Shown in pieces: positions 5,738 to 58,726 of a stretch of 64,000 nt of DNA. The position numbers were made by a program, and so were the translations under genes. The notes below the pieces were generated by a model that ran no database searches, was not told the DNA's origin, and saw only the letters and a list, made by a program, of their open reading frames with translations. Source of the stretch: Taibaiella sp. (GTDB lineage Bacteria > Bacteroidota > Bacteroidia > Chitinophagales > Chitinophagaceae); the NCBI GenBank assembly GCA_013815385.1, contig JACDGL010000009.1, positions 62,001-126,000 of the forward strand, in the 5' to 3' direction. The first letter of the stretch is position 1. Every line of letters starts with the position of its first letter.

Positions 5738-6090
5738 TATTCAAAACGCTTGTAGAAGAAAAATACAAAAAAGCTGAATAGCACATCCAGTATGAACATA
5801 GAACTGATATAAATATCACGCATTGATTGCGTTTTCAGTACAAAGTATAATATCAGATTAATAGCGGTAAGCGACAAATAGGTAAGTGCTGCCCATTTAC
5901 GCATATCGCAAACATATATCCAGCTGATGGTGTAAGCCAGCATCCATATTATCTGTACCCACAGGTAGGGCTCAGTGATATTGCTGTAAAAAACATAAAC
6001 CAGTAGCACTATATGAAAAAGGGCTACCAGCGGAAACAGTAACGGTGGCTTATGCGTTACATCTTGAAAAAATGTTTTCAGGTTGCGCAT
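5737..6090 (-). CDS. Small four-helix membrane protein
   Basis: 117 residues with four predicted membrane segments (about residues 15-35, 44-62, 67-87 and 94-115) and short loops. No enzyme motif or named family is recognised. Its ATG overlaps the stop of the cystathionine beta-synthase gene by one base (TAATG), and its own stop touches the next gene, so all three are almost certainly cotranscribed. The tight coupling suggests a shared job in sulfur or metal handling, but nothing in the sequence proves it. Confidence 0.7.
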   Translation of the reverse strand: MRNLKTFFQDVTHKPPLLFPLVALFHIVLLVYVFYSNITEPYLWVQIIWMLAYTISWIYVCDMRKWAALTYLSLTAINLILYFVLKTQSMRDIYISSMFILDVLFSFFVFFFYKRFE

Positions 6091-7454
6091 TATCCTTTAG
6101 AGAATGCATTTAGAATATCATACTTGGTGAGTATATGGTACTGGCCGCTTTCATCCTTTGTTAATACAGCGCCATTATCTTTATTAATATAGTGTGTAAG
6201 CCGATCCAGGCGCGTATCCATCTCTACAACTGGCAGGCCACTTTCGTTTACATCTGCTATATTGTAGTCGCGCACATTAGCATCCTCTATCAGCTTTTTA
6301 AATAAGCCGCCCTGGGTAATGCACCCGGTAACGGTACCATCCTTCATCACCGGTACCTGTTCTATATCGTATTTCTTCATCAGGTCCAGCGCATCGCTCA
6401 CTTTTGCATCTTCATCTATAGTTACCAGCCTGCGGTGCCCGAGGCCACCTATCAGGTCGCGTACCGTGCTTACTTCCAGGAAGCCGCGGTCCAGCATCCA
6501 TTCATCATTGTATATCTTGCCTACATAACGGCTGCCATGGTCGTGGAATATGACCACCACCACATCTTCCTTTTTTAGCTTATCCTTCAGCTGCTTCAGT
6601 CCGGCTACTACTGATCCCGATGAATAGCCAACAAATATTCCTTCTTCCTTGGTTATATGCCGCGCCATTACTGCACCATCCTTATCCGTTACCTTCTCAA
6701 AAAGGTCTATACACGTGCGGTCGTAATTCTCTGGTACAAAATCTTCTCCGAAACCTTCTGAAATATACGGGTGTACTTCGCCCATATCTATCTCGCCGGT
6801 ATCAAACCATTTCTTTAGCAGCGAACCATAAGTATCTATTGCCCATACCTGCACATTGGGGTTCTTTTCTTTCAGGTATTTGCCTATGCCTACTATGGTA
6901 CCACCGGTACCTGCAGCAGCTATTATATGCGTTATCTTACCACCTGTCTGTTCCCATATTTCAGGGCCTGTCTGTTCATAGTGTGCCTGCCTGTTAGCCA
7001 GGTTATCGTACTGGTTTACATACCAGCTGTTAGGTATTTCCCTGTTCAGCCGACGGGCTACCTGGTAGTAGCTCAGCGGGTCTTCAGGCTCCACGTTTGT
7101 AGGACATACTATTACTTCTGCTCCCAGTGCTTTTAATATGTCTACCTTTTCTTTCGATTGTTTATCAGTAGTGGCAAAGATGCATTTGTATCCCTTTACT
7201 ATGGCAGCCAGAGCCAGGCCCATCCCTGTATTGCCCGATGTACCTTCTATTATGGTACCGCCCGGCTTTATTTTACCTTCTTTCTCGGCTACCTCCAGCA
7301 TTTTCACCGCCATCCTGTCTTTTATAGAGTTGCCGGGGTTAAAGGTTTCCACCTTGGCATATACCGTACAGGGCAGGTCACTCACTACATTATTAAGGCG
7401 CACCAGTGGTGTATTCCCTATTGTTTGCAGGATATTATCGTAAACGCGTTCCAT
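6090..7454 (-). CDS. Cystathionine beta-synthase
   Basis: 454 residues. The N-terminal two thirds form a PLP-dependent fold-type II enzyme: NPGNSIKDRMA contains the PLP lysine at about residue 45, GTSGNTGMGLA is the substrate loop near 70-80, and AAGTGGTIVGIG binds the PLP phosphate. The C-terminal part from about residue 335 has two CBS domains, as in eukaryotic-type cystathionine beta-synthases. It should condense serine and homocysteine to cystathionine in the transsulfuration route, although an O-acetylserine sulfhydrylase role cannot be excluded. A TACCTTCG box at 7480-7487 on the minus strand is a plausible -7 element. It is the first gene of the operon running to 3364. Confidence 0.88.
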   Translation of the reverse strand: MERVYDNILQTIGNTPLVRLNNVVSDLPCTVYAKVETFNPGNSIKDRMAVKMLEVAEKEGKIKPGGTIIEGTSGNTGMGLALAAIVKGYKCIFATTDKQSKEKVDILKALGAEVIVCPTNVEPEDPLSYYQVARRLNREIPNSWYVNQYDNLANRQAHYEQTGPEIWEQTGGKITHIIAAAGTGGTIVGIGKYLKEKNPNVQVWAIDTYGSLLKKWFDTGEIDMGEVHPYISEGFGEDFVPENYDRTCIDLFEKVTDKDGAVMARHITKEEGIFVGYSSGSVVAGLKQLKDKLKKEDVVVVIFHDHGSRYVGKIYNDEWMLDRGFLEVSTVRDLIGGLGHRRLVTIDEDAKVSDALDLMKKYDIEQVPVMKDGTVTGCITQGGLFKKLIEDANVRDYNIADVNESGLPVVEMDTRLDRLTHYINKDNGAVLTKDESGQYHILTKYDILNAFSKG

Positions 7455-57102: not shown

Positions 57103-57702
57103 CTAATTCTTTTCTGTTTCTTCGCTGGCCTTATAGTTAATGCTACTTTCAGCTATTTGGGTGAGGGTAAGATCGGCTTGTTTCTCTTCGTTAAGAGTAA
57201 GCTGTAATATATCGCTAATATCATTATAACCCAGTGTTGCAGCCAGTTGTGCCAAACCGCCATAGGTAGCAATTTCATAGTGCTCTACCTTTTGTGCAGC
57301 CAGTACGAGGCCTACATCGCGAGTGGCAGTACCCTTTTCTGTGTCTTCAATGATGCCTTCACCCTCTTCAGTAATACCAGCCATTGCATCGCATTTTTTT
57401 GCTTGCGGTTTTTTGCCCAATATTTCAAAAACCTGTTCCAGGCGTGTTACATGTTCCTTAGTCACCTGAAGATGTTCTTCAAATGCTTTCTGCAATTGTG
57501 CTGATGTAGCAGCCTTTTTCATTTTAGGCAATGTCTTTACCAGATGCTTTTCTGCCCAATAAATATCTTTCAGTTCATCTGAAAAGAATTTTTGCAGCAT
57601 AGAGTCGTTTGTTGTAGGACGTGTTGCCGGGGATACAGTACTTTTTGATGCTGCCTTTTTAGGAGCTGAAGTACTGCTTTTACTTTTAGTAGCGGTAGCC
57701 AT
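57103..57702 (-). CDS. Ferritin-like DUF892 (YciE) protein with basic tail
   Basis: 199 residues. Residues 36-190 form the four-helix DUF892/YciE bundle (FFSDELKDIYWAEKHLVKTL, EEHLQVTKEHVTRLE, QKVEHYEIATYGGLA, LNEEKQADLTLTQIAE) with the Glu and His pairs of a ferritin-like diiron site. The first 35 residues are Lys/Ser/Thr/Ala-rich, like a histone tail. Family members rise under osmotic and oxidative stress in other bacteria. Confidence 0.85.
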   Translation of the reverse strand: MATATKSKSSTSAPKKAASKSTVSPATRPTTNDSMLQKFFSDELKDIYWAEKHLVKTLPKMKKAATSAQLQKAFEEHLQVTKEHVTRLEQVFEILGKKPQAKKCDAMAGITEEGEGIIEDTEKGTATRDVGLVLAAQKVEHYEIATYGGLAQLAATLGYNDISDILQLTLNEEKQADLTLTQIAESSINYKASEETEKN

Positions 57703-57890
57703 GTTTCTTTTTAATAAGACAGATTAAAATAATTATGCCAGTAAACAATAATGACCACGGTTAGGATATTATTTCTAAGCTAATTTTTAATACGCTACAT
57801 TATTGACCGTATAATAAAAAAGACCCTAATATATATGGTAAATGTTGTATGAGATAGTAATATTTATGATAGACTGGGCTAGAAAAATTA

Positions 57891-57924
57891 CGTAGTTCTA
57901 CGCTAAAGAAACCGTAGTTCTACT
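57891..57924 (+). promoter_or_regulatory. Paired CGTAG-TT-CTACG operator sites
   Basis: CGTAGTTCTACG at 57891-57902 is a perfect 5-bp inverted repeat with a 2-bp centre; CGTAGTTCTACT at 57913-57924 is the same with one change. The 22-bp spacing puts both on one face of the helix, and the second ends right before the -33 box of the + strand promoter. This is the layout of a dimeric activator site. Confidence 0.65.
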
Positions 57925-57925
57925 A

Positions 57926-57956
57926 TTGCAGGGAGTTGCTTCATGCTATAGTTTTG
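57926..57956 (+). promoter_or_regulatory. Promoter of putative small RNA
   Basis: TTG at 57926-57928, 20 bp, then TAGTTTTG at 57949-57956. It points into a region without genes on the + strand. Confidence 0.65.
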
Positions 57957-57962
57957 TACCCA

Positions 57963-58067
57963 ATACAAGCAACATCAAGGGATATTGCAGGAGTTTACAC
58001 CCCTTGATCCCTTTCACTATGATGCTTCAATAAGGAACGCTTCAATAATTTATTGGGGCGTTTTCGT
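57963..58067 (+). ncRNA. Putative small RNA, about 105 nt
   Basis: Predicted from the promoter at 57926-57956 to a terminator hairpin at 58036-58062. Hairpin 1 pairs ATCAAGGG (57974-57981) with CCCTTGAT (58001-58008) around a 19-base loop containing CAGGAG. The terminator AACGCTTCAAT/ATTGGGGCGTT has an 11-bp stem with two U-G pairs that work only in + strand RNA, followed by TTTTCGTT. No reading frame of note is present. The RNA stops 18 bp from the convergent carbonic anhydrase stop. Its target is unknown. Confidence 0.55.
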
Positions 58068-58084: not shown

Positions 58085-58726
58085 TCAGCTGCCAGCAGTA
58101 AGGTTGTATATCTGTTGTATGTCCTTTAATATTTTTTCGAAATTGATGTGCTGGTCTATTAAAATACCTGTATGCATATCAAACACCCAACCATGTACAA
58201 TAGGATAGTTCTTCTCCAGATACGACTTTTGCACAGCTGCGGTCTTTATAATATTGGTACATTGTTCTAAAACATTCAATTCCACCAGCCTGTTATATCG
58301 TGCGTGTTCGTCTTTTATTTCATTCAGCTCGTTTTGGTGCATTCGATACACATCGCGGATAGTGCGTAGCCAGGGATTTAATATACCCAGGTCTACGGGA
58401 GTCATAGCTGCCTTTACAGCTCCGCAATTATAGTGGCCGCAAACAATGATATGTTTTACATTCAGGTGTCGCACGGCATAGTTAATGCACGCCATCACAT
58501 TCAGGTCTGTATTATTTACCAGGTTACCCACATTACGATGCACAAATAGCTCTCCGGGCTCTAGCCCCATTATCTCATTAGCCGGCACCCGGCTGTCTGA
58601 ACAGCCTACATATAAATAATCCGGCTGCTGGTCGCTCGCCAGCTTCTCAAAATAGTCAGGGTCATTCCGCGTCATTTTTGCGACCCATTGTGCATTTTTC
58701 TCAAAAATCTCTTCGTATGAAGCCAT
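58085..58726 (-). CDS. can: Beta-carbonic anhydrase
   Basis: 213 residues, close to E. coli Can. Zinc ligands are Cys42 and Asp44 (or Arg46 partner) in CSDSRVPANE, His98 and Cys101 in GHYNCGA. FVHRNVGNLV completes the site. It interconverts CO2 and bicarbonate in the cytoplasm. A single gene, with an AT-rich upstream stretch of 230 bp and no clear promoter box. Confidence 0.93.
   Translation of the reverse strand: MASYEEIFEKNAQWVAKMTRNDPDYFEKLASDQQPDYLYVGCSDSRVPANEIMGLEPGELFVHRNVGNLVNNTDLNVMACINYAVRHLNVKHIIVCGHYNCGAVKAAMTPVDLGILNPWLRTIRDVYRMHQNELNEIKDEHARYNRLVELNVLEQCTNIIKTAAVQKSYLEKNYPIVHGWVFDMHTGILIDQHINFEKILKDIQQIYNLTAGS

Follow-up and report, generated by a model that had tools for sequence, protein, structure and literature searches.

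The gap between positions 57703 and 58084 of the window, the whole 64,000-nucleotide stretch of DNA analysed here, has a DUF892 ferritin-like gene (57103-57702, - strand) on one side and a beta-carbonic anhydrase gene (58085-58726, - strand) on the other. The source genome spans 3.25 Mb in 39 contigs. Acetate kinase and phosphoketolase genes lie past the ferritin-like gene, and the closest relatives of the carbonic anhydrase are found in Flavipsychrobacter and uncultured Bacteroidetes; we take the source to be a Chitinophagaceae-type bacterium. A sequence-only reading had placed a complete transcription unit in this gap, and all of the elements it named, from operators, promoter and terminator to the flanking genes, are present where it had put them.

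The unit begins with two palindromic operators, which do lie 22 bp apart, as had been claimed: a distal one with the exact sequence CGTAGTTCTACG (57891-57902) and a proximal one with the exact sequence CGTAGTTCTACT (57913-57924), which differs from the first by one mismatch. When the window was shuffled 60 times by dinucleotides, the pair never arose. Next comes a Bacteroidota promoter, TTG-N20-TAGTTTTG, whose -33 element TTG (57926-57928, + strand) sits inside the exact sequence CTACTATTGCA and is separated by exactly 20 bp from a -7 element, TAGTTTTG (57949-57956, + strand; consensus TAnnTTTG). Such a promoter is by itself not unusual, with 6 matches in the window versus 4.4 expected from shuffling. 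In Flavobacterium, the last G of the TAnnTTTG consensus is position -5 (PMC6847099); taking it as such here puts the transcription start at about 57961 and therefore the operator centres at about -64.5 and -42.5, the latter being a class II activator position. With the start set in this way by the -7 element, the predicted non-coding RNA would extend over about 107 nt (57961-58067, + strand).

The RNA would end in an intrinsic terminator (58034-58067, + strand) with a 13-14 bp stem that includes G-U pairs, followed by a U-rich tail. That this terminator is valid only on the + strand is borne out by the folds: the + strand gives -14.5 kcal/mol and a U-rich 3′ end, the - strand -7.5 kcal/mol and no such end. 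It is far more stable than shuffles (z = -5.9), and the full RNA also folds better than shuffles (z = -3.6); together with the operator pair, these features lift the unit above chance. The gain is modest for the body without the terminator (z = -2.0, with 3.4% of shuffles as good). Its preferred main stem-loop (57967-58027, + strand; AAGCA.CAU.AAGGGAU / AUCCCUU..AUG.UGCUU) is a long, broken stem that pairs part of a GGAG and leaves it half-buried. An 8-bp hairpin had been proposed instead; the complementarity for it exists, but it is not the preferred fold (-12.1 versus -15.2 kcal/mol, pair probability 0.008-0.017), and the display of CAGGAG in its loop is disfavoured against the longer stem. 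The idea that an exposed GGAG could pair with or mimic ribosome sequences loses its footing with the hairpin, and is unlikely also in view of the absence of Shine-Dalgarno sequences from Bacteroidetes mRNAs (PMC6847099). An RNA that sequesters CsrA/RsmA was likewise considered and rejected: three GGA motifs against 1.9 expected fall short of the many loop GGAs of such an RNA, and a search for CsrA (PF02599) gave no match in the source genome, whereas three control genomes do match. Since CsrA is absent from the genome, the sponge idea fails.

Which regulator would act on the paired operators? In pattern searches of the source genome, GTAnnnnTAC-N12-GTAnnnnTAC occurs in exactly three places (reversed-pattern control, 0): at the RNA locus, at the promoter of an operon on contig C23, and upstream of a gene for a receiver-domain protein on C30. 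The C23 operon (L136:4858-7257, G000) encodes a protein of about 114 aa that has no Pfam match, a hydrophobic protein of about 207 aa, a sensor kinase with HisKA_3 and HATPase domains, and a LuxR/NarL-type regulator with Response_reg and GerE domains, whose nearest solved structures are VraR, DevR and NarL. Its promoter carries three tandem sites with the same palindrome and the same 22-bp pitch. Over 43 aligned bp, the RNA locus and this promoter are 79% identical, and the alignment includes CTACTATTGCA, the sequence around the -33 TTG, which is also present at the C23 operon. A BLAST search of the locus that included its own genome returned own-genome matches whose similarity is limited to the operator region.

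The spacing between operator and promoter is also shared. From the TAC of the proximal operator to the -7 element the distance is 25 bp at the RNA locus and 24 bp at the C23 operon. The operator 12-mer has three more exact copies in the genome, two of which, on C19 and C36, again lie 25 bp from a TAnnTTT. These two are single exact operators in register (L138 near 6079-6090, L139 near 6561-6572), and downstream of them lie genes for a Por_Secre_tail-domain protein of 1086 aa and for a 319-aa, secreted-looking protein without a Pfam match, which are possible further members of the regulon. The combined operator-promoter search gave four real matches, one of them a self-overlap of the RNA locus, versus one match for the reversed control, so the register is supporting evidence rather than proof. 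Once a single mismatch is tolerated, the 12-mer is no commoner than its reversed control (10 versus 14), and we therefore weigh pairing and register rather than the word by itself.

The paired motif is found in 89 of 197 family genomes; as we read the results, the reversed control matches about 57, so many single matches in other genomes will be chance. When the -33 TTG was added to the pattern, only the source genome matched. Pairs or arrays precede similar operons in G017, G116, G024, G029, G061, G097 and probably G035. In G017, BLASTP homology to the C23 operon covers all four genes; in G116, it covers the first gene, the membrane protein gene and flanking genes, and the contig ends there; in the other five, it is weaker. 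The four-gene signalling operon, an uncharacterised system present in several genera, was also seen at L193 and L196. The operator at the RNA locus is thus common to the regulator's own promoter, and arrays stand at related operons in six or seven other genera, which likely ties the motif to the C23 regulator family. Because these related operons carry pairs or arrays, the C23 response regulator is the best binding candidate at the RNA locus and likely its activator. The sequence-only reading had given the RNA activator sites of its own; a small-RNA unit with activator sites is still the best reading, but the sites probably belong to a shared regulon.

What the DNA shows directly is the operators, the promoter and the terminator, together with the match between these operators and those at the regulator's own promoter. 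We assign a probability of roughly 60% to the locus being a stand-alone RNA gene of about 107 nt that a two-component system would switch on. In the mechanism we propose, the HisKA_3 sensor kinase would phosphorylate the LuxR/NarL-type response regulator that partners it; this regulator would bind both palindromes as dimers, and the proximal dimer, at about -42.5, could then contact RNA polymerase. Control would be by activation, with transcription predicted to start at about 57961 and to end at the terminator. The unpaired parts of the RNA, candidate segments being the CAAUAC 5′ end, the loop segments and the CAAUAA linker, would most likely base-pair with target mRNAs. A duplex-energy scan of 96 start regions gave no outstanding target, and the neighbouring genes score poorly. 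Because the sequence names a specific regulator and a specific site pair, transcription, induction and binding are directly testable.

We found no convincing homologue of the whole unit in 61 genomes, nor of the RNA body by BLAST in 396 family genomes, none of them from the same genus. The covariance search that had been suggested as a check on stem conservation was run with a model in effect built from one sequence, and it revealed no convincing homologue in 121 genomes, again none of the same genus, and hence no second sequence with which to compare the stems. The model did match weakly in 13 other genomes, but the six best matches, whose alignments were viewed, are terminator hairpins in which the body has mostly collapsed. 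Rfam gave no family above its curated cut-off. Plasmids, phages and viral contigs contain no match to the RNA, and a mobile or viral origin was rejected on this basis. A conserved position beside carbonic anhydrase was not seen either, by BLAST and operator scan at L031-L110 or by covariance model at L031-L065. The best other BLAST match among the 396 genomes is in G001, where 29 nt match the 3′ portion of the body at 90% (L002:1501-1529; E 3.2e-4 per genome). This match lies immediately upstream of a terminator-like hairpin and has no visible 5′ partner strand; after correction for 396 genomes it is weak and probably due to chance. The relatives compared included no genome of the same genus, so closer relatives may share the RNA.

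This lack of homologues, and a body that folds only modestly better than shuffles, would also fit a unit put together by chance, or a genuine promoter whose transcript is decaying or has no function. We consider this improbable: shuffles do not yield the operator pair, and the promoter and terminator are intact and correctly spaced. Moreover, small RNAs without relatives are common, and in B. thetaiotaomicron strain-specific ones make up 27 of the 49 intergenic small RNAs called with high confidence (PMC7366714). Slightly more credible, and the main rival, though still unlikely, is that the transcript exists for its effect on the carbonic anhydrase gene that converges on it: read-through or collision would produce antisense RNA or transcriptional interference, or the RNA would pair with the 3′ end of that gene's mRNA. 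The unit does aim at the 3′ end of that gene, stopping 17 bp short of it, and should the carbonic anhydrase mRNA lack its own terminator, the 3′ UTR of that mRNA would be perfectly complementary to the RNA. However, the strong + strand terminator stops the transcript before the gene, and relatives of the carbonic anhydrase gene (L031-L037) have no such unit alongside.

We give still less credence to the operators serving the neighbouring DUF892 gene on the - strand instead of a + strand RNA. Their palindromes are symmetrical, and the start codon of that gene lies about 190 bp off in the opposite direction. Yet between operators and start codon the - strand features no TTG-N-TAnnTTT promoter and no TAnnTTTG, whereas on the + strand the -7 element keeps the register seen at the sister sites. 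Least probable of all is that the transcript encodes a small protein, a notion we rejected for want of a plausible ORF: a frame of 38 codons is open from a TTG at 57985 to a stop at 58101, but it crosses the terminator stem and continues beyond the RNA end, and no ATG ORF is longer than 4 codons. What is left in the gap is an intergenic unit with its own promoter, its own intrinsic terminator and no gene-like ORF, and the candidate is best read as a lineage-specific small RNA under the control of a two-component system.

LuxR/NarL-type regulators activate small RNAs in other bacteria: RcsB activates RprA, and GacA/UvrY activates RsmY, RsmZ and CsrB. These systems are known from enterobacteria and pseudomonads. 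To our knowledge, few small RNAs of Bacteroidota have a known regulator. CsrB is under GacA control (PMC5109040). Like RprA, RsmY, RsmZ and CsrB, the candidate would be a stand-alone RNA gene under predicted control of a LuxR-type regulator. Unlike them, it shows no sequence or Rfam relationship to these RNAs, has a Bacteroidota promoter, and features twin sites with a 22-bp pitch and an adjoining promoter; in contrast to RsmY, RsmZ and CsrB, it comes from a genome without CsrA, which excludes a sponge mechanism. Within the phylum, it resembles GibS and other small RNAs of B. thetaiotaomicron in being intergenic, with a sigma-ABfr type promoter and an intrinsic terminator (PMC7366714). GibS, which is about 145 nt long and conserved within the genus Bacteroides, has an extended single-stranded 5′ region (PMC7366714), whereas the candidate is shorter, consists mostly of stem-loops and has no relatives found. 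Bacteroides, the model member of the phylum, has no obvious Hfq or ProQ (PMC7366714). The sole Rfam model with any score is Spot 42 RNA (RF00021), whose two-hairpin outline is similar, but at 15.6 bits versus a gathering threshold of 80 (E = 3) the candidate is not a member. It looks like a controlled small RNA of an ordinary, sensible kind.

More tentatively, and with somewhat less than even odds, the RNA could be the dedicated post-transcriptional output of a self-regulated four-gene two-component system that is found in several Chitinophagaceae genera. If true, Bacteroidota would have an equivalent of RcsB-RprA or GacA-RsmZ that does without CsrA; for an RNA without relatives, the wider reach is limited.

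The published LexA motif of Chitinophagaceae is CTAA-N5-TTAG (PMC8565304); the motif at the RNA locus is not of this form, and a LexA-type operator was rejected there. A separate pattern emerged in G099, a 2.7-Mb member of the family, which has eleven paired motifs (L181-L190; control, 1), for example at L187:1501-1532, L186:1501-1532, L188:1501-1532 and L182:147-178. Several lie directly upstream of genes whose translations we read as recA, ssb, radC and recN, and of a recurring family of about 230-280 aa with a PELLEE motif near the start. These pairs look like part of a DNA-damage regulon whose motif differs from the published LexA one.
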